Shown piece by piece: positions 1 through 64,000 of a stretch of DNA of 64,000 nucleotides (position 1 is the first letter of the stretch; every line of letters starts with the position of its first letter). The notes beneath the pieces are model-generated. The model did not search any database and was not told the DNA's origin. It was given only the letters and a program-made list of their open reading frames with translations. This DNA comes from Pontibacter burrus (lineage in GTDB: Bacteria > Bacteroidota > Bacteroidia > Cytophagales > Hymenobacteraceae). A program made the position numbers and the translations under genes. Location of the stretch: NCBI RefSeq assembly GCF_010686685.1, contig NZ_JAAGWD010000008.1, positions 62,001 through 126,000 of the forward strand. Direction: 5' to 3'.

Positions 1-1659
1 ACTGAAGCGCCGCGCAACCTGTTCGACCTGACCTCACTGCAAATTGAGTGCAACAACAAACTGGGCATGTCGGCTGATGAGACACTGAAGACCGTGCAAA
101 GCCTTTACGAGAAAAAAGTTGTTTCCTATCCGAGAGTTGATACCACGTACCTGCCTGATGATATCTATCCGAAAATACCGGGCATTTTGCAGGGCCTGAG
201 CAACTATAGCCAGGAAGTAGCGCCGCTGCTGCAAGAGAAAATACGCAAGACAAAAAAAGTATTCAACAACAATAAAGTTACCGATCACCACGCCATTATC
301 CCGACCGGTGCCAATGCAGGCAGCATTTATGGCCGCGAAGCTGATGTATATGACATCATCACGCGCCGTTTTATAGCTGCTTTTTATCCGGATTGTATCG
401 TGAGCAATACCACCGTTAATGCAGAATCAGCAGGCTATAGTTTCAGGGTGCGGGGCAAGCAGATACTGGAGCCCGGCTGGCGTGTGTTGTATGGTGCTGA
501 AGACATAAAACCGGAAACCTCAGGTAAAGATGGCGAGGGCAAGGAAGAAGAAGCAACCGCTGGTGTGCTGCCCCACTTCGAGAAAGGCGAACATGGCCCG
601 CACGAGCCGCTGCTGGAAACCAAAATGACCAATCCGCCTAAGGAGTATACCGAAGCGACGCTGCTGCGTGCGATGGAAACAGCCGGTAAACAGGTGGAAA
701 ACGAAGAGCTGAAAGATGCACTGAAGGAAAACGGCATTGGCCGGCCATCTACCCGTGCTGCCATCATCGAAACGCTCTACAAACGCCAGTACATCCGCAA
801 AGAGAAAAAGAAGATCGTGCCGACGCAAATGGGCATCGACCTGATAGGCGTTATCAAAAACCAGACTTTGAAGTCGGCGGAGATGACGGGGCAGTGGGAG
901 AAGAAACTACGCCAGATAGAAGCCGGTGAATTTAAAGCGGAAGCTTTTCTGCAGGAACTACAGGACTTTGTGGTTAGCCTGGTGCAGGAAGTGAAATACG
1001 ATACCGCTACGGTAACGATAGAACCAACTATAGAGAAGGGTTCTACTGCTACAAAGAGCAGCAAAACAGTTAAACCAGCGAAGGCTGCTGCAGATAAGTC
1101 TGCTGCCCCAACGCAAGGCCTTGGCTCCTGCCCTGCCTGCCAGCAAGGCTACATTGTTAAAGGTTCTTCTGCTTACGGCTGCATCCGGTACAAAGAGGGT
1201 TGCAGGTTCCTGATTCCGATAGAGCAATACGGTAAATCGCTGACCGAGAAACAGGTAACTACACTGCTTACTAAGGGCAAGACACCAACTATAAAAGGCC
1301 TGACCGGCGCCGATGGCAATACCTTTGACGGCATACTGAAACTGAACGGACAGCAGTTACAGGTAGAGGTAGCCGCTAAAAAACCGGAAGCAGATCCGTT
1401 TGCGACCTGCCCGCGCTGCAAACAGGGCCGCCTGCTGAAAGGCAACACAGCTTATGGTTGCAGCCGTTTCCGGGAAGGTTGCCAGTTTAAAGTACCTTTT
1501 GAGCTGGGCGGCAAAACACTTACCGACAAGCAAATTGCAACGTTGCTAACAAAAGGTAAAACAGGCAAAATTAAAGGCTTTATCTCTCCTAAAACCGGAA
1601 ATGCTTTTGAGGCTGCACTTGCCATTAATGAAAACTGGCAGGTAGTGTACCAGTTCTAA
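1..1659 (+). CDS. topB: DNA topoisomerase III (type IA), 5'-truncated by window edge
   Basis: Type IA topoisomerases cut one DNA strand through a tyrosine and pass the other, resolving recombination and replication intermediates. The reading frame is open from base 1, so the N-terminal Toprim part lies outside the window; 552 residues are visible. The active-site motif SYPRVD (usual form SYPRTD) has its tyrosine codon at 127-129. It is followed by the type IA helical core and, at the C-terminus, two similar Cys4 zinc-ribbon repeats (CPACQQGY...GC and CPRCKQGR...GC, codons about 1129-1205 and 1408-1480), each leading into the KSLTEKQ/KTLTDKQ-type topoisomerase C-terminal repeat. This repeat architecture is usual for TopB-like enzymes in Bacteroidota. 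A strong bidirectional hairpin follows. TopB is preferred to TopA because of the C-terminal repeats; moderately sure on that point, very sure of the family. Confidence 0.92.
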   Translation, partial: TEAPRNLFDLTSLQIECNNKLGMSADETLKTVQSLYEKKVVSYPRVDTTYLPDDIYPKIPGILQGLSNYSQEVAPLLQEKIRKTKKVFNNNKVTDHHAIIPTGANAGSIYGREADVYDIITRRFIAAFYPDCIVSNTTVNAESAGYSFRVRGKQILEPGWRVLYGAEDIKPETSGKDGEGKEEEATAGVLPHFEKGEHGPHEPLLETKMTNPPKEYTEATLLRAMETAGKQVENEELKDALKENGIGRPSTRAAIIETLYKRQYIRKEKKKIVPTQMGIDLIGVIKNQTLKSAEMTGQWEKKLRQIEAGEFKAEAFLQELQDFVVSLVQEVKYDTATVTIEPTIEKGSTATKSSKTVKPAKAAADKSAAPTQGLGSCPACQQGYIVKGSSAYGCIRYKEGCRFLIPIEQYGKSLTEKQVTTLLTKGKTPTIKGLTGADGNTFDGILKLNGQQLQVEVAAKKPEADPFATCPRCKQGRLLKGNTAYGCSRFREGCQFKVPFELGGKTLTDKQIATLLTKGKTGKIKGFISPKTGNAFEAALAINENWQVVYQF

Positions 1660-1672
1660 ACTATAACATTTA

Positions 1673-1717
1673 ATAAAAGCAGAAGCGCCACTATTATAGT
1701 GGCGCTTCTGCTTTTAT
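1673..1717. terminator. Bidirectional intrinsic terminator between topB and a convergent lipoprotein gene
   Basis: A perfect inverted repeat with 22-bp arms and a one-base centre. The arms begin with ATAAAAGC and end with GCTTTTAT, giving a GC-rich core with A-tract and U-tract on either side, as expected for a terminator shared by convergent genes. Confidence 0.85.
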
Positions 1718-1743
1718 AAGGTAAAGGGCTATTTGTTATCGTT

Positions 1744-2139
1744 TTATTTAACAGTGAAGCTTACTATCTGCTGCGCTACATTGGTTCTTCCGTCAGTTGC
1801 ACGCACTATAAGCTGATAGCTTCCAGGCCTGATATCACTTACAGCAACTGTTGTATCAAACTCAAAAGCGGTTTTGTTCATTACTTTATTAAAAGAGAGG
1901 AGATCTGTTTCAGAACCACGCACCGTAAACTCCATGTTCTTTACTTCGTCCTTGTCGAAAGCCGAAAGGTAAATACGCAGCCCTTTTGCTTGCTGCACCG
2001 CCTGGTTGGCAGTTGGGTTAATAATGGTCAGGCTTGGTTTGGAACCATCTGGCTGCATACTTCCATCCTCAAAAATATCTTCGCAGCTTGTCAGGGTAAG
2101 GGCAGCAAGAAATGCCGCCAATGTTGTTTTCAATTTCAT
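1744..2139 (-). CDS. Small lipoprotein with an Ig-like fold, function unknown
   Basis: 131 residues. The N-terminus is a lipoprotein signal peptide ending in the lipobox LTSC with the lipidated cysteine at residue 19, followed by an acidic stretch (EDIFEDG). The rest reads as one beta-sandwich domain of about 100 residues, with segments like PSLTIINPTANQAV and SYQLIVRATDGRTNVA that resemble Ig-like or cadherin-type domains of cell-surface proteins. It probably sits in the outer membrane. It is monocistronic, convergent with topB, and divergent from the low-complexity gene at 2619. I do not recognise a named family; the domain call rests on sequence flavour only. Confidence 0.75.
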   Translation of the reverse strand: MKLKTTLAAFLAALTLTSCEDIFEDGSMQPDGSKPSLTIINPTANQAVQQAKGLRIYLSAFDKDEVKNMEFTVRGSETDLLSFNKVMNKTAFEFDTTVAVSDIRPGSYQLIVRATDGRTNVAQQIVSFTVK

Positions 2140-2618
2140 GGTACTATGGCTAAAAGTTAGCTCTAAAACTGGTTACAACTAAAAAATATAATTTTCTGGT
2201 TTTTAGCAGAACCTCAATTATTAAAGCGGCACAAGGTACAAAGCATTTTATTAAGTACAAGTGCGTTAACTAATTTTTGAGATAAAATCACGGCATAACA
2301 CAGCTAATTATGAGCAAAATTTAAAACATCACAACACCCTGAGAAGCAATACACTAGAAAATACTGTTCTATTAGCAGGCCACCACATAATCACAAACTA
2401 TATATACAATTAATACAATTGAGACCCACTAAATTAACGCTCCGAAAAGGCGAACTATATTTATATAAACACTATATATAGTACAATTATATACAATAAG
2501 AGGAGCTATTTCAGATAACTTAATACCTGTTGAACCGTAGAAAAAAACGTCGCGAAGTATAGCAAAGCGATGTGAATCAATTTAGTATAACATTAATTAA
2601 CTGTTAACCCCAAAACCT
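2140..2618. other. Gene-free, AT-rich divergent intergenic region
   Basis: About 480 bp between the divergent lipoprotein gene and the low-complexity gene. It is markedly AT-rich, with TATA-rich blocks around 2395-2500. No ORF worth calling, no RNA gene and no clear repeat. It presumably holds two divergent promoters, but no convincing TTTG/TAnnTTTG pair was identified. Confidence 0.6.
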
Positions 2619-6841: not shown

Positions 6842-8227
6842 TTAAGAGGGAATGAAACCGTAGGCCTGAGGCAGTGTAAGTATAACCTCTGTGCCCTGGT
6901 TGATGCGGGATTTAACTATAATACCGCCCTGGTGCAGCTTTAAAATGCGCTCTGTCAGCGGCAGTCCGATTCCGTGCCCTGTTATGCTTCGTACATTTTC
7001 TGCCCTGAAAAAAGGCACAAATACATGCCTCAGGTCATCTTCGGCAATACCCAAGCCGCGGTCCTGTACCTGCAGCTCCACGTCCGTTTTGGTAAGCACC
7101 ATGCGCACCGAAGCACTTCTGCCAGACGGCGAGAATTTAATGGCATTCTCGATCACATTCACAATTGCAATCAGCAGCAAGGCTTCGTTGCCTTTTACTA
7201 CCAGGCGGTTCTCATCTTCAGGCAGGTCGGCAAAGTCAATGTTTATCTGCGCTTCGGGTTGGCGCTTCCGTACCTGGTCGCGGGCCATCCAGACCAATTC
7301 ATCAATGCGCAGTAAGTCTTTCGTTATTTTAGATGGGTCGATACTTGCCTGGGCGATCTGAAGTAAACCGTTGGAGAGCTCGGTCAGCAGGCGGGCATCG
7401 TCCAGGGTAGAGCTAAGTACACGCTGGTATTCTTCAGGTGTTCGGGGCTTCATCAGAGCCACTTCCAGCTCGCCCATCATGGTTGTTAAAGGTGTACGCA
7501 ATTCATGCGAAGCACTCGACACAAAGGTGCTTTGCATTTCGAAAGCAAGCTCCAGGCGCTCCAGCAGCTTATTAAAGGTCTGAGCCAGATGCGAAAGCTC
7601 ATCGGTACCTTCGGCGTTTGTAAGGCGCATGTGCAGGTCCGAGGCTGTAATTTTCTCTACCTCGCTCACTACTTTGGTAATAGGCCGCAAAGCGTCTTTG
7701 GCAAATGCCCAGCCTGCCACCAGCACAACCAGTAAAGACCCCAGAAACCCCACGATCAGAATTACTTTCAGATGCTGTAGTTTTTTTAAACTATAGGCAT
7801 CTACAGACGAAGCCAGTACCACAAACTCGCCTTTAGGAGTATTGTACAAAATACCCACTACCTGCCTTACCCCCTGCTCGTAATGCTCTTCTTTTTTGTT
7901 CCGGATGGTTGTAAGTACTTCGGGTGTGATCAGCAGATCACCATTACCGCGAGCAAATACCAGCTTTCCGCCGGCATCATATATCCTCACGATCTCCTGT
8001 GGTAGCACCTGGTAAAAGCGACGCTCATTCAGTTTCCGGGTTTGCGGATTAGCCTGCTCATTTTCTAACGCATAGGTAGCTACCACTTTCGCCCGCTGCA
8101 GAATACGGGCGTAAAAATCTTCCTGACGGTAAATGGATGTAAAGTAGTAGATAACCAGCGAGAAGAGCGCCAAAATCAGGGCGAAAATACCGGCAAACTT
8201 TAACGTGAGGCGGGTCCGGATCTTCAT
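6842..8227 (-). CDS. Two-component sensor histidine kinase
   Basis: 461 residues. Transmembrane segments near residues 10-30 and 152-175 enclose a periplasmic sensor region. A HAMP domain follows (LRPITKVVSEVEKITASDLHMRL), then HisKA with the phosphorylated histidine in SASHELRTPLTTMM and a HATPase domain with N box NVIENAIKFSPSG, G1 DRGLGIAEDDL and G2 GHGIGLPLTERIL. The 4-bp overlap with the upstream response regulator gene indicates translational coupling and partnership. The architecture resembles metal- or envelope-responsive kinases of the OmpR-partner group; the signal is unknown. A CDF metal exporter is divergent from the pair, a hint only. Confidence 0.93.
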   Translation of the reverse strand: MKIRTRLTLKFAGIFALILALFSLVIYYFTSIYRQEDFYARILQRAKVVATYALENEQANPQTRKLNERRFYQVLPQEIVRIYDAGGKLVFARGNGDLLITPEVLTTIRNKKEEHYEQGVRQVVGILYNTPKGEFVVLASSVDAYSLKKLQHLKVILIVGFLGSLLVVLVAGWAFAKDALRPITKVVSEVEKITASDLHMRLTNAEGTDELSHLAQTFNKLLERLELAFEMQSTFVSSASHELRTPLTTMMGELEVALMKPRTPEEYQRVLSSTLDDARLLTELSNGLLQIAQASIDPSKITKDLLRIDELVWMARDQVRKRQPEAQINIDFADLPEDENRLVVKGNEALLLIAIVNVIENAIKFSPSGRSASVRMVLTKTDVELQVQDRGLGIAEDDLRHVFVPFFRAENVRSITGHGIGLPLTERILKLHQGGIIVKSRINQGTEVILTLPQAYGFIPS

Positions 8228-8907
8228 ACGTCCTGCTGCTCCTTTAGCACATACCCCATACCCACGAGCGTATGTATCAGTTTGTTTGGCTGGTCCTTAT
8301 CAATCTTTTTGCGGAGAAAGTTGATGTAAACATCCACTACATTACTGCCCGTGTCAAATGACGTTTCCCAAACCTGCTCCAGAATATCTACCCTGGAAAT
8401 CACTCTTTCTTTGTTGCGCAACAGGTAATGCAGCAAGGCAAACTCACGGGCAGTAAGATTAACAGACTTGCCTGCACGTACCACTGTTTTTTTGGCTACG
8501 TCCATTTCCAGATCGGCTAAGCCCAGCTTTTCTCCTGTAGAATTATCAGTGCCGCGCCTGGTAAGGGCACGTATGCGGGCCAGCAGTTCTTTGAACTCAA
8601 AAGGTTTGGTCAGGTAATCGTCGGCGCCGGCGTCGAGGCCGGTAATTTTGTCGTCGGTAGCGCCTAAGGCTGTTAGCATCAGTATAGGCACCTGCTGGTT
8701 ATGCCTGCGTATTTCGCGGCACACATCCAGCCCGTTGCTGTTCGGCAGAATCACATCCAGTATAATCAGGTCGTGTTCCTGCTGCAATGCCAGTTTTACT
8801 CCAAAAGTGCCGTCGTAGGCCTGTTCCACATCATAGGTCTGCTCTTCGAGGCCTCTTTTGATAAAGGCAGCTACTTTAGGGTCGTCTTCAATCAGCAGTA
8901 CTTTCAT
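8224..8907 (-). CDS. OmpR/PhoB-type response regulator
   Basis: 227 residues. The receiver domain shows the acidic pocket EDD (residues 7-9), phospho-acceptor Asp51 (LIILDVILP) and the conserved Lys in YLTKPFEFKEL. The C-terminal winged helix (LTAREFALLHYLLRNKERVISRVDILEQVW...VVDVYINFLRKKID) is of the OmpR type and binds DNA. First gene of a two-gene operon with the histidine kinase, overlapping it by 4 bp. Divergent from the CDF transporter gene. Confidence 0.95.
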   Translation of the reverse strand: MKVLLIEDDPKVAAFIKRGLEEQTYDVEQAYDGTFGVKLALQQEHDLIILDVILPNSNGLDVCREIRRHNQQVPILMLTALGATDDKITGLDAGADDYLTKPFEFKELLARIRALTRRGTDNSTGEKLGLADLEMDVAKKTVVRAGKSVNLTAREFALLHYLLRNKERVISRVDILEQVWETSFDTGSNVVDVYINFLRKKIDKDQPNKLIHTLVGMGYVLKEQQDV

Positions 8908-9033
8908 GCGGGCGTTGCATCTTATGGTCTTTTACTTCAACTTTAGCAGTCGGATGCCTGTTATAGGATTAGGCAGTATTTGCAAAGGTAATTGCAATCT
9001 CTAAAAAAGTTTGCGCGCAGCAGGTTTAATCTC

Positions 9034-9948
9034 ATGTCACATTCACATCACCACGGCCATCACCACCATCATCATAGCGAAAGCAATATAAAGGTAGCTT
9101 TTTTCCTGAATCTCGGTTTTACCATACTTGAGTTTATCGGGGGTTTCTGGATAAACAGCGTGGCTATTATGTCAGACGCATTGCACGACCTGGGTGACTC
9201 GCTCTCGCTGGGAATGGCCTGGTATTTCGAAAAGCTATCTAAAAAAGGAAGCGACCGCACGTTTTCTTATGGCTATAAACGCTTTTCGCTGCTTGGTGCT
9301 GTTACGAACTCGGTGGTGTTGCTAGTAGGTTCTTTTATCATTCTTTCGGAAGCACTGCCCCGGCTATGGAATCCCGAATCGGTGAATGCCGCCGGTATGA
9401 TCGGGTTTGCGCTACTGGGCGTGGTAGTAAATGGTGCGGCAATGCTCCGTTTAAAGAGCGACAACTCTATAAATGAACGGGTGGTGCGCCTGCATTTGCT
9501 GGAAGATGTGTTAGGCTGGATTGCAGTACTGGTGGGCGGTATTATCCTCTATTTCTTCGACTGGCCAATTATAGACCCCTTACTTTCAATCGGGATAACA
9601 CTGTTCGTACTTTATAATGTTGTAAAAAATCTGCGCCAGAGTCTTACCATTCTGCTGCAAGGTACCCCGCCCGAACTGGATACAGAAGCTATTCAGCAAC
9701 GCATTACAAGCCTGCCGGCAGTTGAGTCTATTCACGACCTGCACATCTGGACACTGGATGGATCTTACAATGTACTGACTTTACACGCAGTTGTAGCCGA
9801 AAACCTGCAGATGCATGAAGCGGAAACGATAAAACAGCAGATCCGGGACCTGCTAACAGACATAGGCGTGCAGCACATTACCATTGAACTGGAAAGACCT
9901 GGTTTTGACTGCGGGCACGTAGATTGCGGCGATCCTAGTTCTGGTTAA
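9034..9948 (+). CDS. Cation diffusion facilitator (CDF) zinc/cadmium-type exporter
   Basis: 304 residues from the ATG that begins the His-rich N-terminus MSHSHHHGHHHHHHSE; an in-frame upstream start would add 14 residues without family support. Six membrane segments. The transport-site pattern is visible as ALHDLGDS in helix II and the equivalent HLLEDVLGW in helix V. A cytoplasmic ferredoxin-like C-terminal domain follows (VESIHDLHIWTLDG...). The family exports Zn2+ and similar ions by proton antiport; the His-rich tail likely binds metal. Its 3' end overlaps the convergent DUF1801 gene by 14 bp. Confidence 0.93.
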   Translation: MSHSHHHGHHHHHHSESNIKVAFFLNLGFTILEFIGGFWINSVAIMSDALHDLGDSLSLGMAWYFEKLSKKGSDRTFSYGYKRFSLLGAVTNSVVLLVGSFIILSEALPRLWNPESVNAAGMIGFALLGVVVNGAAMLRLKSDNSINERVVRLHLLEDVLGWIAVLVGGIILYFFDWPIIDPLLSIGITLFVLYNVVKNLRQSLTILLQGTPPELDTEAIQQRITSLPAVESIHDLHIWTLDGSYNVLTLHAVVAENLQMHEAETIKQQIRDLLTDIGVQHITIELERPGFDCGHVDCGDPSSG

Positions 9949-10294
9949 GCAGTACTGCTTCGCGAATCAGTTCTGAAAAATAGTTCTCGTCGATATCAGT
10001 GGTAGTACGGATTTTAATGTGGTACGGCTGGCCGTTTCGGCTCACCAGTTTGCGGGCAGGATCAGTGAGCTCTTTGCCCCTGAAAAAACCGAAATGAATG
10101 CCGCTGCGCGAAGATGCGAAATAACACACTGGCCCGTAGAAGAAATAGCAAGGGTTATCCCAACGCACGCATTCTTCCAGGTGCGACACGGAGCCCAAGA
10201 TAATGCGTCTTACTTCCTGTGCCAGGGCTACCTTTTCCGGACTCAGTTTCTCGATGTATTCGTCTACCTGGTTCGTTGTAGCTTTAGTTCTCAT
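9935..10294 (-). CDS. DUF1801 (YdhG-like) protein
   Basis: 119 residues, soluble. It matches the DUF1801 pattern: VDEYIEKLSPEKVALAQEVRRIILG, then the WDNPCYFFYGPVCYF core and a C-terminal HIKIRTTTDIDENYFSELIREA helix. The family fold is known but no reaction is established. Convergent with, and slightly overlapping, the CDF gene. A second DUF1801 protein is encoded at 58106. Confidence 0.8.
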   Translation of the reverse strand: MRTKATTNQVDEYIEKLSPEKVALAQEVRRIILGSVSHLEECVRWDNPCYFFYGPVCYFASSRSGIHFGFFRGKELTDPARKLVSRNGQPYHIKIRTTTDIDENYFSELIREAVLLNQN

Positions 10295-11272
10295 AGTGTA
10301 TAGTTCGCTTTTGGCATGTTGATGGATAAATATACATTTAATTTAATACTCAAGCCAAATCAACAGATTAAATTGTTGTGGCAGAACCGGTATTAATGGG
10401 ATTTGATGGATTGATGCTGTTAGCTGTGGTTGGCCATAGTTTTATAGTTGGCATAGTAGGGCATTCGCTGGCGCGGGTTTGCAACCCGTATCTACTTATA
10501 GGGTTGAGTTTGTAACTCAACTGGCCTGAAAGGACAGGAATGACAATGGTGTTGGCTATAGTTCTATAGTTACGGTTGGTCATCCCCCTACCCCCTTCGA
10601 AGGGGGACTTTCTGCCTTTGCTATAGTTTGACCTATAGTTTTATAGTTATTTTTTTCAAACCACCCCTACCCCTCCCAAGAGGGGAATTCTGCTTTTACA
10701 TTTCAACAGTTATAGTTCTATAGTTCCAGACCATGAGCAGGCAGGCGCAGCCTGCCCTAAGGAATTACTACCACGAAAAGGCGATGCAACTATAACATCT
10801 CTATCTATAAGAACTATAGCTATCGAAGGATTTCAGTCTTTGGGTTGAGCGCCTTGTAGATTTCTGGTGCCGCAGGCATTGTGAGGAACGAGCAAAAGAA
10901 ATGTACACCGCGCGATGCCCGAAGACGAGGCCTCGCGGCCGTGAGCGCACCAAAGCTGAATTGAAACGATAGGTAGGTGAAGCTCCCAGGATTGGAAGTG
11001 GCTATGAAACTATAGCTTGGTTCAGGTTGTAATGAGCTTCAACTATAGCAATAGACGCTCGTAGGAGCTGCGCACGCTACGAGGTCTGTAGTAAATATAG
11101 GCCTTATAAGATGTCTCGACTAACGCTCGACATGACAAAAGAAACTATAGTCTGTGATAGATTTAGGCTGTGATAGATTTCTCACTTGTTCGAAATGACA
11201 ATAAAGTAAACTATGGATTTTCAGCTCCCTCGGCTAAGATCCGCAAGACAAAAAGAAACATTTCAGTTAACA
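10295..11272. repeat. Gene-free 1-kb block built from several dispersed repeat modules
   Basis: No believable gene. From left to right it holds: a partial copy of the ~105-bp inverted-end element (about 10468-10529), two C-rich hairpins (about 10583-10612 and 10660-10694), and a mosaic repeat (about 10657-11190). The mosaic includes the 20-mer at 10834-10853 found again at 63954-63973 (same strand) and at 55413-55432 (opposite strand), and the segment near 10910-10954 found reversed near 55309-55352. The octamer CTATAGTT/AACTATAG is very dense here. Confidence 0.75.
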
Positions 11273-16401: not shown

Positions 16402-18912
16402 ATGAAAACACTGATAAAAACGCCTGTTAAAACCGAGCTCAACCTGAAGCTTACTGGTGTAGGGCTGATTGTAGTTTCCTTCCTGTTGTTTATGCTTCCG
16501 GAGTGGGGCGTCGGGGCAACTGATGAGGCTTCGTTCGGTCTCTTCTGGATGAACTATAGTCTGACTGCCGTTTACTTTGTCGTAATGCTATCCAAGGGAG
16601 TATTTTCCTTTAAGCGGCCTTTACGACACTTAGAATACCTTTACCTCTACCTCGTACTTTTTATCATCAGTTGCTACGCGCTTAACCGCCAGATGAGCAT
16701 TTTCCAGGATTCTGTTCCCTGGCTCGAAGCTTTCATCACGCTTTTCTGCATAACCCTGATGGGCTATAGTTTCCGGGAGCTGTTACCGAAAAAATTGAAC
16801 CAGGTGCTGCTCTTTGTACTTGGTGCCGGATCTGTGCTGTGGCTATACTATGCTATTTACCTGTTGCCACTTTATATCATCAGTCTTTTTGGGATACTGG
16901 CACTGGGCATGTCACTACATACTTATGTTCCGCTCTGGGTAGTAATTTGTTTGGGGGTTGGGGTGTATAAAGCCGCGGCTGAGGACAGGCAGTACCTGCG
17001 CAGTTTTATAGCCGGAGCCGCATTCCCTATCCTGTTTAGCGTTTTCTATATCTGGCAATGGCAAGACCGTAATGAGCAGCTTGCCTTCAGCGGTAACGAA
17101 TACGTAATTCAGGAAGATGAAACGCTGCCACGCTGGGTAAAATTAAGCCAGCAATTACCTGCCGACTACCTGACCGAACGCATACTAAAGACCGACCTTG
17201 TTTACCAGGTGCCTATCGGGGAGTTTAGCATGTGGGATATGCCCAGGGAGAATTTTGAGGAAGTGAAACGCCACGACCCACTTGTGATCTTATCGGTACT
17301 GTTGCTGGGTGAGCCGAATCTGGACCGGAAAGAAAAGATCAAGATACTGGAAAGCATGTACGACGCACGGCATCAGGCCGAGGAGCGGCTTTGGTCGGGC
17401 AATAACCTGAAAACAGCCAATGTAGTGTCGCAGGTGCGCATTTACCCGAACTATAGACTTGCCTACACCGAGAAGGTGCTACGCGTGCACAACAACATGG
17501 CACACAGCAATAATCAACAGGAAGCAATCTACACCTTTTTCCTGCCCGAAGGCAGCGTAGTTACATCACTTTCGCTCTGGATAAACGGTCGCGAAGAGAA
17601 AGGTTACCTCACTACCAAAAGCAAAGCCCAGACAGCTTACAAAACTATAGTTGGCGTCGAAGCCCGCGACCCATCGGTAGTGCACTGGCAGGAAGGCAAC
17701 AGGGTATCGGTAAGAGTTTTTCCGTGCACGCCGGAAGAAGACCGCCAGTTTAAGATCGGGGTTACCTCTCCCCTTCAGCAGCAGGGCGAAGCGCTTGTTT
17801 ACCAGAACATTTACTTTACCGGTCCAAGCACACAAGGCGCTACCGAGACATCTATGGTTTATTTGGATGAACAGGTAAGCGGCCTCGAGTTACCAGCAAA
17901 CTATAAACTTACGCGCAGCAATACATATAAACGCCAGGGAAACTATAGCCAGGACTGGAGCCTGCGGTTTAACACACCTGTTTTAGCGAACAGCAGTTTC
18001 AGTTTTGCCGGCAACAACTATAGTTTAACTGAACTGCCGCAACAGTTTGTACCATTTGAGCCACAGCAACTTTACCTCGATATAAACGCCAGTTGGTCGG
18101 AGAATGAATTTGAGCAGGTGTGGGAAACGGCAAAACAAAAGCCGGTGTATGTATGGGATGGGAAAATGGTGCAACTGAACGAACAGAACAGGGCAGAACT
18201 ATTTGGCCTGCTGCAACAGCAACGCTACTCATTGTTCCCGCTTCATAAGATCAAAAACCCGGAACAGGCACTGGTTATCAGTAAAAGTAACGGCGTATCT
18301 CCTAACCTCAGCGACCTGAAAGATACCCCATTTGCAGAACAGATGGCGGAAGTGCTGCCGCAACATGCAACTATAAGCGTGTTCTCGCTTGGCGAAAAGT
18401 TATCTCCCTACTTTAAGAGTCTGAAAGAGTTACGGGTAATTGCTCCTATGCACGGCGACACCAAACAACTGGCTACACTACTGCAGAATAAGCAATTCAT
18501 TAACACAACTATAGATCATAACACCGTTCGCCTGGGAGAATCAGGGCTGGCTATAGCTAAGACAAATGCAACTATAGCGGGAGGCACAGCGCCAGATCAT
18601 GTACTGCGTTTATTCACCTATAACCATGTGTTGATGCAGATCGGGGCACGGTATTTCAGTAAGGAATTTATAGAAGACGAACTGATTGCAGAAGCCACGC
18701 AGGCCAATATTGTAAGCCCGGTATCCAGCCTGATCGTGCTGGAAACGCAGGCAGATTACGAGCGGTTCGACATCCAGAAAAGCAAAGACAGCCTGGGAAA
18801 TGCCAGTATGAACGGTTCAGGTGCTGTACCGGAGCCGGAAGAGTGGGCACTTATCATCCTGGCAGTGCTGATCATCGGATTTATCACCTTAAAACCTTAC
18901 TTTCTGAGATGA
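16402..18912 (+). CDS. XrtN-system VIT-domain protein with PEP-CTERM-like tail
   Basis: 836 residues from ATG at 16402 (an in-frame GTG at 16378 is possible). The N-terminal ~210 residues contain six or more membrane helices. A VIT domain follows (VSQVRIYPNYRLAYTEKVLRV...EAIYTFFLPEGSVVTSLSLWINGREEKG...), then a long beta-rich region. The last 27 residues (810-836) form a sorting tail: PEPEEW, a hydrophobic helix, and a basic end (KPYFLR). This combination is that of the dedicated target of exosortase N in Bacteroidota. It overlaps the exosortase gene by 4 bp (ATGA), so enzyme and substrate are translationally coupled. The fate after cleavage is unknown. Confidence 0.87.
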   Translation: MKTLIKTPVKTELNLKLTGVGLIVVSFLLFMLPEWGVGATDEASFGLFWMNYSLTAVYFVVMLSKGVFSFKRPLRHLEYLYLYLVLFIISCYALNRQMSIFQDSVPWLEAFITLFCITLMGYSFRELLPKKLNQVLLFVLGAGSVLWLYYAIYLLPLYIISLFGILALGMSLHTYVPLWVVICLGVGVYKAAAEDRQYLRSFIAGAAFPILFSVFYIWQWQDRNEQLAFSGNEYVIQEDETLPRWVKLSQQLPADYLTERILKTDLVYQVPIGEFSMWDMPRENFEEVKRHDPLVILSVLLLGEPNLDRKEKIKILESMYDARHQAEERLWSGNNLKTANVVSQVRIYPNYRLAYTEKVLRVHNNMAHSNNQQEAIYTFFLPEGSVVTSLSLWINGREEKGYLTTKSKAQTAYKTIVGVEARDPSVVHWQEGNRVSVRVFPCTPEEDRQFKIGVTSPLQQQGEALVYQNIYFTGPSTQGATETSMVYLDEQVSGLELPANYKLTRSNTYKRQGNYSQDWSLRFNTPVLANSSFSFAGNNYSLTELPQQFVPFEPQQLYLDINASWSENEFEQVWETAKQKPVYVWDGKMVQLNEQNRAELFGLLQQQRYSLFPLHKIKNPEQALVISKSNGVSPNLSDLKDTPFAEQMAEVLPQHATISVFSLGEKLSPYFKSLKELRVIAPMHGDTKQLATLLQNKQFINTTIDHNTVRLGESGLAIAKTNATIAGGTAPDHVLRLFTYNHVLMQIGARYFSKEFIEDELIAEATQANIVSPVSSLIVLETQADYERFDIQKSKDSLGNASMNGSGAVPEPEEWALIILAVLIIGFITLKPYFLR

Positions 18913-20288
18913 AGCTAAACACACTGCGCCCTACCGAGCAACTGCTGATTCCTTTGCTGGTTCTTGGCTTGTACCTGGTATTGGGAGCCTTTTTTCTAAG
19001 CAAATACCTGCTTTGGGACAGCCAATGGTTACTGGCTATAGTTCTTGTACCTTTTGTTGCACAGGTGCAGCCTCGTAAATCGCTCTCTTCTGTTTTACTG
19101 ATCACAACTATAGTGCTGGCCATACTTGCTGCTACCCTGCAAAACAGCACTTTATACTTCTTCGCTTTTGTGGTAGCGCTGTGGTGTGGTGCGCAGCTTA
19201 TAGTTGGCAAAATCTCCATCTACCCGCTGTTGCTGCTGGTAGTAGCTTCGCCAATATTTAAGTACATCGCCAACATTATAAGTTTCCCGCTCCGGATGCA
19301 GCTTACCAACTGGGCTGTTACCATACTGAATACGATAGAAAAGCAGGCCGAAGCAGCTGGCAATATTATTCTTGTTGAAGGGAAGGAGTTCGCCGTAGAC
19401 CCGGCGTGTGCCGGGTTATCGATGCTGTCGCTGGCCCTGATTCTGGCTGTTTTTATACTTGCCCACCTGCAACGGACCAACCAGAAAATGCTGCCGCTAT
19501 GGTTTATTGGGTTGATGTTAGGCCTTATGCTGCTGCTTAACCTGGTATCGAACCTACTACGCATCCTGTTGCTGGTCTGGTTTGAGATACTGCCCGGAAA
19601 CCCGCTCCATGATGTGATTGGCTTGCTCTGCTTGCTAGTTTACGCCCTCATTCCCTTTTATTTTGTCTCCAGGTGGCTGCAGCAATTCGTGGTTGTCGGT
19701 TCAAAAAAACCATCACGCAGGTCACGCATCAGTTTAAGGGGCGCTTTGCTTCTGAACTATATTTTACTGCTGATGCTGACAGGAACAGGCTTTAAGATCA
19801 GAGGTGAGAAACCAACTATAGTTTCTGACTTTACAACGCCGGAGCTAACCGGTTTCGAAGCAGCAACTATGGAAAACGGCGTAACAAAGTATAGTAATGA
19901 AGAAGTATTGATTTACCTGAAACCGGTGCAAGCATTTTACTCTACGGAACATCACCCGTTAATCTGCTGGGAAGGAAGCGGCTATAAGTTCCGGCATGTG
20001 CAGCAGCGACAGGTGAGCAACTATAACGTGTATGTGGGCGAACTGCAAAAAGGGAAAGATACTCTCTACACGGCCTGGTGGATGGATAACGGGCAACATC
20101 AAACTATAGACCAATGGGACTGGCGCACACGCATGCTGAAAGGCGAAGCGAAGTTCAGGCTGGTGAATGTTACTGTTGCGCAAAAGCAGAAACTTGCCGA
20201 AGCTATAGTTACGCTCATCGAAAGCCAGAACAACTATAGTCACACAACTATTACATTGGCTGATGCTGCAAACAAATCTCAACTATAG
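18909..20288 (+). CDS. xrtN: Exosortase N with fused EpsI-like C-terminal domain
   Basis: 459 residues from ATG at 18909. About eight membrane helices contain the exosortase transpeptidase residues: Cys167 in DPACAGLSML, Arg218 in NLLRILLLVW and His234 in NPLHDVIG. After residue ~300 there is a soluble domain resembling EpsI/DUF3485 (HHPLICWEGSGYKF, WWMDNGQHQT), a fusion typical of several exosortases. By family knowledge it recognises a PEP-like motif and cleaves or transfers the tail of the preceding gene product. No other PEP-CTERM protein is seen in the window, consistent with a one-enzyme, one-substrate system. The XrtN subtype rests on the VIT partner and tail. Confidence 0.87.
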   Translation: MKLNTLRPTEQLLIPLLVLGLYLVLGAFFLSKYLLWDSQWLLAIVLVPFVAQVQPRKSLSSVLLITTIVLAILAATLQNSTLYFFAFVVALWCGAQLIVGKISIYPLLLLVVASPIFKYIANIISFPLRMQLTNWAVTILNTIEKQAEAAGNIILVEGKEFAVDPACAGLSMLSLALILAVFILAHLQRTNQKMLPLWFIGLMLGLMLLLNLVSNLLRILLLVWFEILPGNPLHDVIGLLCLLVYALIPFYFVSRWLQQFVVVGSKKPSRRSRISLRGALLLNYILLLMLTGTGFKIRGEKPTIVSDFTTPELTGFEAATMENGVTKYSNEEVLIYLKPVQAFYSTEHHPLICWEGSGYKFRHVQQRQVSNYNVYVGELQKGKDTLYTAWWMDNGQHQTIDQWDWRTRMLKGEAKFRLVNVTVAQKQKLAEAIVTLIESQNNYSHTTITLADAANKSQL

Positions 20289-20357
20289 GCATCGGGTTTC
20301 TGCAGAATTTTCGGACCTTTGCAGCCGAATTCATTTAACCTATAGTTTCTTACATCA

Positions 20358-21370: not shown

Positions 21371-24300
21371 ATGAAAACTTTAGGACTTGATCTGGGCACC
21401 AATTCTATTGGCTGGTCAGTTGTGGATGCCTCACAAAAAGTAATACTCGGCGCTGGCTCCCATATATTTCAGGAAGGTGTAAACATTGATGCCAAAAGCA
21501 AAGCGGAAACACCCAAGAATGCTAAACGACGCGAGTACCGTCAAAAACGTCGACAGCTGTTTCGCAGGAAGTTTAGAAACAACCTGCTACAAAAAGCACT
21601 GAAACAAGCTTCATTAATGCCCGCTTCCCTTGAAGAGAATGATGCCTACTGGCAAGGCTGTCCATATCAACTTCGAAAGAAAGCATTATCTGAGCCACTC
21701 ACAGCACATGAAATAGGTCGTGTTATCTTTCATCTAAATCAGCGCCGTGGCTTTAAAAGTAATCGTAAATCTGGTAGTAACGAAGAAGGCGCTCTGTACA
21801 AAGGTGGAAACGGTAAAACAGGCATAGACGACACATTGGCCGATTGGCAAAATGGTGATTTTAGAACATTTGGGGAATACCTGGCTTCACTGGATCCGCA
21901 CCTGCAACGCCTGCGTAACCGCTATACTTTGCGTAGCTGGTATGAGCGGGAGTTGGAAGAGATCTGGCAGGTACAACAACGGTATCATCCGGATAAACTC
22001 ACCCCAGAGCTGAAGAAGCAACTTGCTTGCCCTGATTTTGGAATCGTGTTTTACCAGCGCCCGCTCAAGTCGCAGAAGCACCTGGTAGGCAAATGTACCC
22101 TGGAGCCCCAGAAACCGCGTGTGCCGGTATGCCACCCTGATTTTGAAGAGTTCAGGATGTGGCAGATCATCAATAACCTGCAGGTAGCCGGACCGGGCAG
22201 GTTTAACGAACTGCTCGACGATGAAGAAAAGACGAAGCTGGTAGAGCTGTTTTATACAAGAGACAAGATCAAGATCAGCGACATACGCAAAAAGCTGAAA
22301 CTGACGGAAGATTATACTTTTAACTACGAAGAGAAAGAACAATTTACCGGCAACGAGACAAGTATAAAGCTTTCCAAATTGTTCGGAAAAGCTGCCTGGG
22401 ATGCCCTGCCCGACGAAGACAAAACCCTGCGTACTTCCAAGACGGAAGAGAAAAGTATAAGCAAGTTAGATGTATGGCATACGCTTTACTTTGCCCAGGA
22501 CCAGGACTGGCTGCAAAAATATGCAGCAGAGAAGTGGGGCTTTACAGATGAGCAACTATCTAAACTGTCGAAAACGCACTTGAAAGAAGGCTATGGCAGC
22601 CTAAGTCTCAATGCTATTCGCAAAATGCTCCCTTTACTGCGCCAGGGAATTAAATATGATAAAGCCGCGCTACAGGCAGGCTATCATCACAGCCAGATTA
22701 GTGAGTATAAAACTGGCCTGGAAAAGCTGGAAACACCCAAAAACCTGCGCAACCCGATTGTACAGCAGGCGCTCTATGAGCTGCGAACACTTGTAAACCA
22801 ACTTATACAGCAGTACGGCAAATTTGATATTATCCGTGTTGAGCTGGCCCGTGATCTGAAAGTTTCGGCTACCAAACGTGCTGACATTCGCATAGAACAG
22901 TTCAAGAACAGAGCTCGTAACGACCGGTATTACCAGGAATTGGTGCAGCAGGGTGTTCAGCGGCCAAGCAAGAACGATATAGACAAATACCTGCTTTGGG
23001 AAGAATGCAAGAAGACCTGTCCTTATACTGGGCAAGCGATCAGCTTTAACGACTTGTTCTTGCACGGTCGCTTCGACATTGAACACATCCTGCCCTATAG
23101 CCGAACACTTGATGACAGCATAGCCAATAAGACACTTTGCGAGAAAGGCTTTAACATCAAAAAAGGAAACCAGACGCCGCACGAGTGCTTGAGCGGCGAC
23201 CAAGCCAACTATATGCTGGTACTGGAGCGCGTACAGAAACACATGCCGCGCAAACTTGCTAGGTTTAAACAGGAGAAACTTGATGAAGATTTTGCGCAGA
23301 AGCAGCTAAACGACACACGCTACATCAGTAAAGAAGCACGAGCCTACCTGAAAAGTATTTGTGACCGTGTAGATGTGACTACCGGTACAGCAACAGCACC
23401 ATTGCGCCACTTCTGGGGCCTGAACTCTATCTTGAACGAAGGGAGAAACAAGAAAACCCGCGACGATCATCGCCACCATGCTGTAGATGCCCTTGTAGTT
23501 GCCCTAACTACCCCTGGTATACTCCGCGAATTGAGCAACTGGAACAAACTGGACCGCTCTCCACAGATGCATAACTTCGAAATGCCATGGGATACCTTTT
23601 ACCGTGACGCCAGAACAGCTATAGAAAACATATTAGTATCGCAGAAAAAGAACGGCAAGACTGTTACATCCTGGAACAGGAAAGTGAAGGACAAAGATGG
23701 TAAAACAACCACGCAACGGCAGGTAGCAGCAAGGGGGCAGTTGCATAAGGAAACTGTGTACGGCAAACGGCAAGACCTGCAAGGCAAAGAATTTTATGCA
23801 GTTCGTAAGAGTCTGGAAACACTTACGCCTGCCATGATCGGCAAAATAGTGGACCCAGTTGTACGCGAGATTGTAAAAGACAGGCTGCGTGCCTTCGGAG
23901 TGGACCCAGATTCAAAGAAGTTTGAAATACCGAAAACAGCCTTTAATGAGCCGCTGTATATGCCAAACATTAAAGGCAAAAGCGGCAGGCAAAACCAAAT
24001 TAAAAAGGTGCGCATTCGGGAGAATTCTTCCGGAATGGTGAAGCTAAAACAGGATATTAACCAGTGGGTAGAGCCGGGCAGCAACCACCACGTAGCAATT
24101 TACCAGGATGAACAGGGGAAACTGCATGAGCGGGTTGTTACTTTCTATGAGGCAGTTGAACGAAAAAAACAGGGCATTCCAGTAGTACAACCTACCACTG
24201 TTGAGGGTTATACATTGGCGCAGACACTTCAGATAAATGACATGTTCCTGCTCGGGCTTACGGAAGAAGACATCAATTGGCATGGCCCTAACCTGCACAG

Positions 24301-24487
24301 GCTGCTGAACCCCTACTTATATCGAGTGCAAAAGCTATCTTCTGGTGATTATTCTTTTAGATTACATATAGCATCCACAATTGAACATTCGGCTGAGGAA
24401 ATAAGAATTCGTAGTATGAAAGCTTGGGAACAGCAGAATCCCATCAAGGTGCAAATCACACCAACCGGTCAGCTAAAGAAGCTATAA
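21371..24487 (+). CDS. cas9: Type II-C Cas9 endonuclease
   Basis: 1038 residues, the compact II-C size. RuvC-I: MKTLGLDLGTNSIGWSVVD with Asp7. Arg-rich bridge helix about residues 50-70. RuvC-II: IIRVELARDL with Glu491. HNH: FDIEHILPYSRTLDDSIANK with catalytic His572 and the metal-binding Asn595 region. RuvC-III: DDHRHHAVDALVVAL with His703 and Asp706. All expected catalytic residues are present, so the nuclease should be active. The C-terminal ~330 residues hold wedge and PAM-interacting parts. With crRNA and tracrRNA it cuts matching double-stranded DNA next to a PAM, which cannot be read from the sequence. First gene of cas9-cas1-cas2; no csn2 or cas4, hence subtype II-C. Confidence 0.97.
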   Translation: MKTLGLDLGTNSIGWSVVDASQKVILGAGSHIFQEGVNIDAKSKAETPKNAKRREYRQKRRQLFRRKFRNNLLQKALKQASLMPASLEENDAYWQGCPYQLRKKALSEPLTAHEIGRVIFHLNQRRGFKSNRKSGSNEEGALYKGGNGKTGIDDTLADWQNGDFRTFGEYLASLDPHLQRLRNRYTLRSWYERELEEIWQVQQRYHPDKLTPELKKQLACPDFGIVFYQRPLKSQKHLVGKCTLEPQKPRVPVCHPDFEEFRMWQIINNLQVAGPGRFNELLDDEEKTKLVELFYTRDKIKISDIRKKLKLTEDYTFNYEEKEQFTGNETSIKLSKLFGKAAWDALPDEDKTLRTSKTEEKSISKLDVWHTLYFAQDQDWLQKYAAEKWGFTDEQLSKLSKTHLKEGYGSLSLNAIRKMLPLLRQGIKYDKAALQAGYHHSQISEYKTGLEKLETPKNLRNPIVQQALYELRTLVNQLIQQYGKFDIIRVELARDLKVSATKRADIRIEQFKNRARNDRYYQELVQQGVQRPSKNDIDKYLLWEECKKTCPYTGQAISFNDLFLHGRFDIEHILPYSRTLDDSIANKTLCEKGFNIKKGNQTPHECLSGDQANYMLVLERVQKHMPRKLARFKQEKLDEDFAQKQLNDTRYISKEARAYLKSICDRVDVTTGTATAPLRHFWGLNSILNEGRNKKTRDDHRHHAVDALVVALTTPGILRELSNWNKLDRSPQMHNFEMPWDTFYRDARTAIENILVSQKKNGKTVTSWNRKVKDKDGKTTTQRQVAARGQLHKETVYGKRQDLQGKEFYAVRKSLETLTPAMIGKIVDPVVREIVKDRLRAFGVDPDSKKFEIPKTAFNEPLYMPNIKGKSGRQNQIKKVRIRENSSGMVKLKQDINQWVEPGSNHHVAIYQDEQGKLHERVVTFYEAVERKKQGIPVVQPTTVEGYTLAQTLQINDMFLLGLTEEDINWHGPNLHRLLNPYLYRVQKLSSGDYSFRLHIASTIEHSAEEIRIRSMKAWEQQNPIKVQITPTGQLKKL

Positions 24488-24490
24488 TCT

Positions 24491-38922: not shown

Positions 38923-39103
38923 GTTCTTGTAGTTTTATTTTGTTGAACATGTCAAAGGTAGCGGGTGTGCAGGCCAGGGATGTTACAGAATTTTGGGGGA
39001 GAGTTGCAGGATTTAGCGTGATGATTTTTACCGCAAAACCGACAGAAAATTTACCAGAATAATATTCATTTTCATTCTCCTATATTATATATATAGATAT
39101 ACC

Positions 39104-39111
39104 TATATTTG
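39104..39111 (+). promoter_or_regulatory. Isolated -7-like element before the TIR gene
   Basis: TATATTTG matches TAnnTTTG and lies 56 bp before the start codon. No TTTG is found 19 bp upstream, so the promoter call is weak. Confidence 0.3.
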
Positions 39112-39166
39112 CTTACATATAACTAATTAAATTTAAATAGATAAAACTTATTTGTAACTGCTACCG

Positions 39167-40150
39167 ATGGCAAAACTTTATATATCCTATCAGCATACAG
39201 ACGTCCAAATAGTTAGAAGTATAACCGAAGAATTGAGGCAAAGAGGTCATGAGATTCTTATGGATGATAGTGTATTAAAAGTTGGACAAGATTGGCGAAA
39301 AGCTCTACTACAATCTTTGAAAGAAGCAGATGGAGTGTTGGTGCTTATTACAGAAAAAAGCTTAGAATCTAAATATGTAGTGAGTGAGATTGGAACGGCA
39401 AGAGCTTATGTAGCAGAAAGCTCAAATAAGAAATTCATAATACCTGTTATATACGGAGCTATTCCAATACCTAGCTTTATTGAAGACTTATACTGTATTA
39501 GATTAGATCCTATCAACTTTTCCCAAGCTATTGACAAAATTGATAATTCGATATCGAGCTTCTTAGGAAAGAAAGAAGCAGAAAAGGAAAATGAGAATCA
39601 AGAGAGACAACAAATTGAAATAAAGGCAGGTGATTATATAAAAGATGCAACGAACGCCTTGAATAAACGAGAACTTCACAACCGGTGGATAGCTTATTTA
39701 TGTTACATCATTGGATTTATAACATTAATATGGGGAATTCAAGTCGGGATCCAAGGATTCAAAGCAATTACTGACATACAAAGTTTGCTGGAAGAGTACC
39801 CTAATCAAGTTTGGGGCATATATATTCTTTCAATTTTAAAAAGTACAATAATAATTGGTTTATTAATAGCAGGTTCTAAATACACTTTTACACTTGGAAA
39901 ATCATTTATGCATGAAGCACTTAGAAATGCAGACAGAATACATGCTATATCCTTTGGCGAATTTTATCTTAAGGCTTACGGAGACAAAGTAGATTCTCAT
40001 AATGATGTCAAGGAGGTGTTCCAACATTGGAATATTGATAAGCCTTCATCCTTCTCTGGTATAGAGAGTCAATCCTATGATCCAAAATTCTCTGAAAGTT
40101 TACTTGAAGTCATCAAGACCTTAAGTAATAAGGTAAAGAATAACGAATAG
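39167..40150 (+). CDS. TIR-domain protein with two membrane helices, candidate defence gene
   Basis: 327 residues. The TIR domain covers residues 1-135: KLYISYQHTDVQIVRSITEELRQRGHEI, WRKALLQSLKEADGVLVLITEKSLESKYVVSEIGTARAY, with the putative NADase glutamate at Glu74, then IIPVIYG. A charged linker (KKEAEKENENQERQQ) leads to membrane segments at about 174-195 and 215-236, and a ~85-residue C-terminal domain (FMHEALRNADRIHAISFGEFYLKAYGDKVDSHNDVKEVFQHW). The gene is clearly more AT-rich than its neighbours and lacks the AACTATAG octamer, both suggesting recent transfer. TIR-membrane effectors are known in abortive-infection systems; no sensor or nuclease partner is adjacent. Function is inference. 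Confidence 0.87.
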   Translation: MAKLYISYQHTDVQIVRSITEELRQRGHEILMDDSVLKVGQDWRKALLQSLKEADGVLVLITEKSLESKYVVSEIGTARAYVAESSNKKFIIPVIYGAIPIPSFIEDLYCIRLDPINFSQAIDKIDNSISSFLGKKEAEKENENQERQQIEIKAGDYIKDATNALNKRELHNRWIAYLCYIIGFITLIWGIQVGIQGFKAITDIQSLLEEYPNQVWGIYILSILKSTIIIGLLIAGSKYTFTLGKSFMHEALRNADRIHAISFGEFYLKAYGDKVDSHNDVKEVFQHWNIDKPSSFSGIESQSYDPKFSESLLEVIKTLSNKVKNNE

Positions 40151-40201
40151 CTACTTGATAGAGTCAGTCTCTGCTCTAATAATTTCATATTTGAACTATA
40201 C

Positions 40202-52189: not shown

Positions 52190-52280
52190 TCAACTATAAA
52201 TCAACTTTCTAACTTATACTTTTCTAACTTTCTAACTACAAGGACTCCTAAACTTTCTAACTCTTAAACTCCCAAACTAT
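52190..52280. repeat. Degenerate TTTCTAACT minisatellite between ligase and PASTA genes
   Basis: AACTTTCTAACT-like units recur (for example 52203-52215, 52220-52237, 52251-52263). A second cluster of the same unit lies at about 55694-55735. No hairpin; role unknown. Confidence 0.55.
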
Positions 52281-61926: not shown

Positions 61927-61959
61927 GATGTTGGAATTAAGTATGAACTATAGTTTGGA

Positions 61960-62904: not shown

Positions 62905-63077
62905 AGTTATAGTTTAAATTAGCTTTATTATAGTTTCTTAACTTAAGATGTGACAAAAGGTTGTACAGATCGGCTTTGGTATGGTACCATCAGAAAAATC
63001 AAGCAAAGGCTGTTACTTCTTTATAACTTGCCTTCCCATTAGCTGCACACGTAGATAGCAGCGCATGAGTCAGAACT

Positions 63078-63299
63078 ATGGAAGAACAAAAGAACAACCC
63101 CTTGCACGGCAAAACACTGGAGCGCATACTGGTGCAGCTCGTAGATTATTATGGCTGGGACGAACTGGGCTATAAGATCAACATCAACAGCTTTAACAAT
63201 AACCCCAGCATAAACTCCAGCCTGAAATTCCTGCGTAAAACGCCCTGGGCCCGCCAGAAAGTAGAAGAACTGTACATCCAAACCTTTGCCAAAAAATAA
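63078..63299 (+). CDS. VF530-like (DUF2132) small protein
   Basis: 73 residues. [61 protein letters not shown] is the VF530 fold pattern, with the conserved GW-x-EL and FLRKTPWAR. Described structurally as small DNA-binding-like proteins; role unknown. Ends 2 bp before the following SRPBCC gene. Confidence 0.9.
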
Positions 63300-63301
63300 G
63301 C

Positions 63302-63691
63302 ATGAAAGACTATAAGAAATACTACATTATTCCGGCCGAGCCCGAACTGGTATACGCCGCTCTCACCAACCCGCTCACCATACAAGCCTGGTCTGGCGAA
63401 GAAGCTGAAATGAGTACCGAACCCGGCTCCGAATTCTCATTATTCGAAGGCAGTATAGTTGGCAAAAACCTGGAATTTGAAGAAGGTAAAAAGCTGGTGC
63501 AGCAATGGTACTTCGGCGAGCAGGAAGAGCCCTCGATTGTAACTATAAAACTACACCCGCACAAATACGGCACCTCCGCCGAGCTGCGTCACACCAACAT
63601 CCCCGACCAGGATTATGATGATATAGTTGAAGGCTGGGATAACGTGTACTTCGGTTCGCTGATCGAGTTTTATGAAGACAATGAGGGGTAA
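63302..63691 (+). CDS. SRPBCC/START-like domain protein
   Basis: 129 residues. Layout: KKYYIIPAEPELVYAALTNPLTIQAWSGEEAEM, then GSIVGKNLEFEEGKKLVQQWYFGEQEEPSIVTIKLHPHKYGTSAELRHTNIPDQDYDDIVEGWDNVYFGSLIEFY. It is the AHSA1-like form of the Bet v1 fold. Likely operon with the VF530 gene. Confidence 0.86.
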   Translation: MKDYKKYYIIPAEPELVYAALTNPLTIQAWSGEEAEMSTEPGSEFSLFEGSIVGKNLEFEEGKKLVQQWYFGEQEEPSIVTIKLHPHKYGTSAELRHTNIPDQDYDDIVEGWDNVYFGSLIEFYEDNEG

Positions 63692-64000
63692 AACTTGTCT
63701 GAATAAGGATTTACAGGATTTTAGGATTTTCAGGATTGGAGCTGAGCTAGAGTGCTATTGTTAGCATTTAACCCACCCCTACCCCTCCCGGGAGGGGAAT
63801 TTTCTGCCATTACTACTTCACCAGTTATAGTTCTATAGTTACAGCCTATGATTCGGACAGGTCGCAGCCTGGCCCACGAAACTACCACCACGAAAAGGCG
63901 ATGCAACTATAGCCATTCAACAAACTATAGGAACACTTGCTATCGAATGATCTCAGTCTTTGGGTTGAGCGCCTTGTAGATTTCTGGTGCCGCCAGGCAT
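63692..64000. repeat. Gene-free end of window, copy of the mosaic repeat
   Basis: 63770-64000 repeats 10657-10879 in the same direction (C-rich hairpin, then the CACGAAAAGGCGATGCAAC and CAGTCTTTGGG modules), cut by the window end. No gene. Confidence 0.72.

Follow-up and report, generated by a model that had tools for sequence, protein, structure and literature searches.

An iterated asymmetric DNA word with three one-base dialects in the genus Pontibacter, a possible self mark of the DNA-uptake kind

The iterated word in the window and its genome

The window (the whole 64,000-nucleotide stretch of Pontibacter burrus DNA analysed here) contains an exosortase-family gene, Cas9 and Cas1 genes, a TIR-domain gene and a two-component system pair, and a short word, AACTATA, recurs along it at one copy per ~300–340 bp, most often as the octamer AACTATAG (Table 1). 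Within the data analysed, it is certain that this asymmetric word is iterated genus-wide, that it occurs in three dialects, and that it is under present lineage-specific drive or selection. The initial annotation of the window had described CTATAG, preceded by AA or followed by TT, as scattered at very high density, and the counts bear this out: 118 copies of CTATAG were found against 17.4 expected from base composition, 102 of them with AA before or TT after. The eight copies that it placed near the exosortase gene are all present within 1 bp (19036, 19108, 19816, 20104, 20203, 20234, 20283 and 20340), and the chance expectation for that stretch is indeed below one (~0.4).

On both strands of the window together, AACTATAG occurs 119 times against 1.9 expected from a second-order Markov model; the excess is ~50–60-fold for orders 0–2, and third-order expectation is 10.7. 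Across the genome (4.31 Mb in 29 contigs), 7503 copies of CTATAG face 911 of the reversed pattern, and 7489 copies of AACTATAG face 157 of the control. Restriction of the excess to the window, which the initial annotation had named as a possible refutation, is ruled out by the CTATAG density of 1.84 per kb in the window and 1.74 per kb in the whole genome. It had also named closeness to a fifth-order Markov expectation. Taken literally, the counts come near to that expectation, with 119 copies of AACTATAG observed against 101 in the window and 723 against 629 in a sample of the relative G028; yet such a model is blind to the motif and cannot refute the excess, because its 6-mer input consists of pieces of the motif.

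Structure of the unit

The unit was defined in two samples: 420 kb of G028 and, from the genome of the window, the window itself together with a further 20-kb stretch. Its strict core is AACTATA. The base before it is A or C, and the base after it is most often G (55 and 61% in the two samples), then A (30 and 28%) or C, with T rare; most single-base variants of this core show little enrichment. Sites flanked by both AA and TT number 146 against 243 predicted from independence in G028, and 17 against 30 in the window. Because such double-flank sites are fewer than independence predicts, the unit is the asymmetric 7-mer; CTATAG is ruled out in that role, its palindromic form being a by-product. 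The ratio of observed to expected counts falls from 40.7 for exact copies to 3.3, 1.05 and 0.93 at one, two and three mismatches; shuffled controls lie near 1, with the exception of one of the two window controls, which reaches 3.3 at zero mismatches on few copies.

Dialects across the genus

Whole-genome counts were made in 50 genomes of the genus, including that of the window (G000). Dialects were called with thresholds set by the analyst (300, 500 and 400 copies per Mb), and the genomes were arranged on a tree of the single gene rpoB, with Hymenobacter as the root, for which support values are not shown. Thirty-nine of the genomes carry one of three dialects that lie one base apart: 20 have AAGTATAR alone, 12 have AGGTATAG, 4 have AACTATAG alone and 3 have AACTATAG together with AAGTATAR, and the remaining 11 have none. 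AAGTATAR is the commonest word of the genus and reaches a maximum of 9637 copies versus 178 of the reversed word (G025), and AGGTATAG marks exactly one clade of 12 genomes with 2823–5222 copies. The seven genomes in which AACTATAG is abundant form one rpoB clade (G000, G038, G014, G017 and G028, with lower counts in G012 and G045), and a weak excess appears outside it in G049 (907 versus 179) and G016 (476 versus 182). In the three bilingual genomes, the second word AAGTATA is enriched, with 347 copies versus 81 in 180 kb of G012, 318 versus 83 in 180 kb of G045 and 145 versus 43 expected in 120 kb of G014.

The 11 wordless or nearly wordless genomes sit at four places of the tree. Among them, G016 is weakly positive as stated above, G047 and G037 retain a residue of AAGTATAR (792 versus 264 and 1189 versus 484), G035 has none (310 versus 294) and G041 holds 751 copies of AGGTATAG. 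By parsimony judged by eye, AAGTATAR would be the ancestral word and these 11 genomes would have lost it. They are also larger than the carriers, with medians of 5.8 versus 4.6 Mb (Mann–Whitney p = 3.5e-6, uncorrected for kinship). No strong alternative word was seen in samples of 80–100 kb each from G033, G035, G037 and G047; the G037 sample has 38 copies of AACTATA versus 17. In 100 kb of G035, two weak words of a different kind were noticed, GCCATATA (36 versus 10.7) and ATATAGCC (26 versus 6.3), which might represent a further dialect or chance. In the other five genera of the family (154 genomes), where only AACTATAG and AAGTATAR were sought, counts of both words stayed within about twice those of their controls, the highest case being AAGTATAR in G053 (716 versus 359). 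Separately, AGGTATAG recurs about every 66 bases at C1:1944098-1946633 of G001 in the manner of CRISPR-array repeats, so that the forward count of G001 is inflated.

Gain and loss of sites

Conservation of sites between relatives was a check proposed in the initial annotation. In 181 kb over which G028 and G017 are 90% identical, G017 keeps 376 of the 531 AACTATA copies present in G028 (71%), compared with 60% for shuffled 7-mers, a control not matched for gene content. Among the 155 non-conserved sites, 132 align without gaps, 83 of these with one difference, and 23 involve insertions or deletions. Insertion of whole words or spread on repeats was rejected as the main route.

Changes were polarised with ancestral states assigned by parsimony over ~173 kb of the G028/G017 alignment. 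AACTATA arose from sequences one base away in 40 of 1528 cases (2.6%), compared with 269 of 40322 (0.67%) for shuffled words, or 3.9 times as often per near-miss, and it was lost in 86 of 918 cases (9.4%) versus 278 of 1956 (14.2%), a factor of 0.66. The sister word AAGTATA decays in the same pair, with 9 gains from 2168 near-misses (0.4%) and 52 losses from 182 sites (29%). No single mutational route explains the gains of AACTATA, because they hit all seven positions and comprise 21 transitions among 40 (178 of 269 in the controls).

Expressed as gain/loss ratios, AACTATA is favoured in G028 (0.21; control 0.055) and G017 (0.19; 0.039), and AAGTATA is not (0.020 and 0.004; controls 0.043 and 0.046). 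G045 favours AAGTATA (0.18; 0.042) and AACTATA less so (0.088; 0.038), and G014 favours AACTATA (0.15; 0.046) and AAGTATA little (0.055; 0.036). A five-way count of unique AACTATA losses and gains agrees in part (22 and 15 in G012, 3 and 28 in G014, but 10 and 27 in G045).

Placement of the sites

In 20 samples of G028 together with the window, and with genes taken as long open reading frames (ORFs), AACTATA has a density of 2.35 per kb in genes versus 7.4 per kb between genes. Convergent gaps are the richest intergenic class (9.39 per kb) and divergent, promoter-bearing gaps the poorest (6.25 per kb), which is not the upstream enrichment expected of a promoter element. Genes also hold far more sites than synonymous-codon shuffles of the same genes, namely 100 versus 10.4 in the window, 386 versus 51.9 in G028 and 353 versus 46.2 in G017. 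Because several frames are used and counts lie 7–10-fold above these shuffles, a simple codon effect is rejected, as the initial annotation had argued from the several reading phases of CTATAG. The intergenic blocks that it singled out are dense, with 13 and 5 sites. Its statement that the TIR islet is free of the motif holds for CTATAG and fails for the core at one AACTATA (40194). The sparse Cas9–Cas1 stretch compares with 1.93 sites per kb over the genes of the window.

Table 1. Features of the window in relation to AACTATA sites
Feature	Position	Strand	Sites and remarks
All AACTATA sites	1..64000	both	188: 100 on +, 88 on -; 119 of them AACTATAG
Longest site-free gap	7790..10298		2510 bp, flanked by sites 7789 and 10299; contains most of a two-component system pair
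Densest long intergenic block	10440..11220	both	13 AACTATA: 8 on - (10443, 10557, 10565, 10622, 10634, 10642, 10711, 10719), 5 on + (10788, 10812, 11008, 11041, 11143)
Exosortase-family gene (18843-20288, PF09721) and flanks	18909..20350		12 AACTATA, 8 CTATAG, several phases
Doubled site AACTATAGTT	19814..19823	both	readable on both strands
Cas9 and Cas1 genes	21371..25393	+	motif-poor: 2 sites (23207, 25090) in 4.0 kb
Intergenic block	36370..36500	both	5 sites: + 36374, 36386, 36489; - 36408, 36492
Site-free gap with AT-rich TIR-domain gene (39167-40150)	38747..40193		

Repeats dispersed among intergenic regions (such as those around CGGCCGTGAG...CACCAAAGC and CCCCTACCCC...) were noticed at 10470-11000 of the window and in the G028/G017 alignments; several species of the clade share them, and they carry some copies of the motif. 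No Rfam match besides a tRNA was found in the window, and no short-range inverted repeat of at least 14 bp was found in 9900-12000. Elsewhere in the window, a 900-residue ORF (52277-54979) has D-Ala-D-Ala ligase-type matches, with the N-terminal domain in two stretches and the C-terminal domain in four, which suggests a putative fused or duplicated ligase.

Candidate components of a reader

In known systems, the receptor for the DNA uptake sequence (DUS) or the uptake signal sequence (USS) is carried by a type IV (pseudo)pilus. When up to 31 candidates in each genome were scored, the ATPase of type IV pili and type II secretion (PF00437) gave no convincing match in the 50 genomes; only partial nucleotide-binding stretches were seen, just over the cut-off in three. 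A reader would accordingly be a machine other than a pilus. The word would work in the manner of DUS, but it is not assigned to the pilus-based DUS family, because that machinery was looked for without a convincing match.

ComEC has one match per genome in all 50, which rules out its loss as the cause of word loss. One in-frame stop interrupts comEC in G020 (C1:2771217-2771876) and in G040 (C76:160505-161305); the AAGTATAR count of G020 is the second lowest of its group, and the lowest, that of G001, goes with an open comEC. Neighbourhoods of comEC were listed for three genomes, and ten proteins were scanned, one being a comEC neighbour (PhoH-like) and nine lying at or near outer-membrane receptors elsewhere. 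A Riemerella-like DUF5689 receptor was not among these ten, a tiny fraction of a genome that says nothing about absence; the nine outer-membrane-associated proteins comprise TonB-type receptors, SusD, enzymes, DUF4249 and Calx-beta.

Comparison with known systems

The word resembles the DUS of Neisseriaceae, for which the cited text reports dialects that follow phylogeny, 5918 copies in 2.4 Mb in one species and a Simonsiella genome with two dialects one transversion apart (Frye 2013, PMC3630211). Common to both are thousands of copies at comparable density, near-identical dialects, a bilingual genome and wordless genomes within the family. In contrast to the DUS described there, the strict core here has 7 bases instead of 10, the bacteria belong to another phylum, no pilus ATPase was found and the sites are clustered. 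The asymmetry of the word and its gradual origin by point mutation are shared with the USS of Haemophilus influenzae, and the steep drop of over-representation from zero to one mismatch, followed by values of ~1, is shared with the Haemophilus and Neisseria sequences (Bakkali 2007, PMC1939737). Extreme over-representation, alternative words in single lineages and genomes with loss are also known for the HIP1 and alternative HIP words of cyanobacteria; unlike the present word on present evidence, the HIPs described in that source are palindromes tied to matching methyltransferases (Elhai 2015, PMC4390886).

Within the same phylum, Riemerella is reported to transform without a pilus by means of ComEC, DprA, ComF and RecA together with four uncharacterised proteins, among which are one of the outer membrane and one at the surface with DUF5689/DUF5017 (PMC8459023). 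A preference for own DNA is reported in R. columbina (PMC7965970). ComEC is present here as well. On the other hand, the putative uptake words given in the cited passages are A-rich k-mers and not a dialect family.

A possible self-recognition signal and its alternatives

The initial annotation had likened the motif to HIP1 or to DNA-uptake sequences, and it was right as to the class. The uptake half fits well, in that dialects follow phylogeny, genomes can be bilingual, the mismatch profile agrees and spread occurs by point substitution under drive; what speaks against it is that the usual pilus machinery was not found and that spacing is clustered. The HIP half fits badly, given an asymmetric unit and no enzyme seen in common among the carriers (four methyltransferase families, among the matches listed). 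The most likely explanation is that the word serves for self-recognition in the way of a DNA-uptake sequence, which is given a chance only slightly short of even. This reading is supported because the three one-base dialects follow the rpoB tree and G012, G014 and G045 are bilingual; because the resident word is gained more, at all seven positions, and lost less than controls in G028/G017, where its sister decays, while that sister is favoured in G045; because the mismatch profile has the Haemophilus and Neisseria shape; because the Cas9–Cas1 and TIR genes are motif-poor and ComEC is present in every genome; and because wordless genomes are larger and Riemerella, of the same phylum, transforms without a pilus.

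In the mechanism proposed here, a DNA-binding receptor of the competence machinery would prefer DNA with AACTATA(G/A/C) or with the sister dialect of its own lineage. Own-kind DNA would then enter cells and recombine more frequently, so that any additional copy would spread slightly better than its absence (molecular drive), and copies could rise until thousands balance mutation. A shift of receptor specificity by one base would establish a new dialect, during which old copies would decay and new ones accumulate, leaving the genome bilingual in between. The reader would be an uptake receptor, uptake with recombination would be the source of the drive, and, by analogy with the machine reported for Riemerella, the reader may be a pilus-free one of the Bacteroidota type. 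The full version, in which the genus marks its chromosomes with a self word in at least three dialects read by a pilus-free uptake machine, lineages in mid-switch are bilingual and the genomes of those that dropped the word grew, is offered more tentatively, as somewhat less probable than its opposite.

Several observations weigh against an uptake signal. A reader protein was not found among the families and proteins searched, nor was a convincing pilus ATPase, and ComEC, present in every wordless genome, is interrupted in G040, which keeps a full AGGTATAG count; ComEC loss therefore does not explain word loss. The genome-size ranges overlap (4.9 Mb in G016 and 5.0 Mb in G035, with carriers up to 5.5 Mb), and kinship is uncorrected. 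The gains of favoured words per branch are few (8–22). Despite its abundance, the subtype AACTATAA has gain/loss ratios of 0.030 in G028, where it is not favoured, and of 0.062 in G017, only about level with controls, so that the G at position 8 matters in these two genomes. Finally, the USS of H. influenzae, a different word in a different phylum, is evenly spaced, and even spacing is absent here: the coefficient of variation of gaps is 1.43 versus 1.03 for random placement in G028 and G017, and 1.10 versus 1.06 in the window.

Two enzymatic alternatives would also produce dialects. A solitary DNA methyltransferase could modify the word, with methylation-guided mismatch repair (the model of Elhai 2015) or regulatory use retaining word-creating mutations and with dialects reflecting changes of enzyme specificity. 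Such an enzyme would keep any site-creating substitution, as was observed, and HIP1 and the alternative HIPs go with matching methyltransferases in cyanobacteria (PMC4390886). In the present genus, Eco57I-like matches exceed the cut-off in 46 of 50 genomes among the matches listed. Enzymes of this kind are able to read asymmetric words. The unit, however, is non-palindromic, PF01555, PF02086 and PF00145 are all missing from five carriers (G004, G009, G015, G020 and G026), G020 has no Eco57I-like match over the cut-off either, and no methyltransferase common to all carriers was seen by eye in four families, among the matches listed and with type I enzymes (PF02384) not searched; this explanation is considered unlikely. 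Still less probability is assigned to a Chi-like self-protection word, at which a nuclease of the AddAB/RecBCD kind would stop or recombine, so that own DNA survives, wordless DNA is destroyed and dialects follow the nuclease. A short asymmetric word in thousands of copies, its scarcity in the Cas9–Cas1 and TIR genes and the larger genomes of wordless lineages, as if more foreign DNA were kept, would suit it, as would the strand lean of 742 to 559 obtained when the G028 record is halved at its middle. Chi sites of known systems show a marked leading-strand bias. Over arms set from GC skew, the lean in G028 is only 690 to 611 (both figures summed by hand), so that polarity along this chromosome may be slight, and the excess of sense over antisense sites in genes (555 versus 350) could cause it. 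Words of the KOPS type, which serve segregation, point one way in nearly all copies per chromosome arm; no such orientation was seen, the strands being near-equal in the 20 samples of G028.

A site for an abundant chromosome-architecture or regulatory protein, in which weak sites are selected one by one, is held to be as improbable as the Chi-like word. Same-strand direct repeats of the word at 8, 12 and 20 bp are over-frequent, as with cooperative binding, and sites are about three times as dense between genes as within them; however, part of this paired spacing lies inside the dispersed intergenic repeats, promoter-bearing gaps are the poorest intergenic class, and loss from whole lineages would be odd for a core chromosome protein. 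Mutational bias or repeat-element spread without function could draw on the copies in dispersed repeats and on the indels at 23 of the 155 non-conserved sites. It is largely contradicted already by the codon-shuffle and gain/loss results, and is regarded as very improbable: most non-conserved sites align gap-free, many by one base, gains involve many substitution types at all seven positions, the excess extends into genes, shuffled controls stay near 1 apart from the small window sample, and each lineage favours its own word.

Implications

Searches of one open-access library brought up no published account of such a word for this genus; the uptake words in the cited portions of the papers above belong to Neisseriaceae and Pasteurellaceae, and the purpose of HIP1 is described there as unsettled. 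Because the 50 genomes combine three dialects, bilingual members and several apparent losses, the causal protein should be findable from gene content and specificity residues. The word looks like a label that helps cells to recognise DNA of their own kind, and it can be tested directly here, apart from pili, how self-marking DNA arises, what drives it and what it costs. As a practical hint, these bacteria may be easier to transform with donor DNA that carries the right word.

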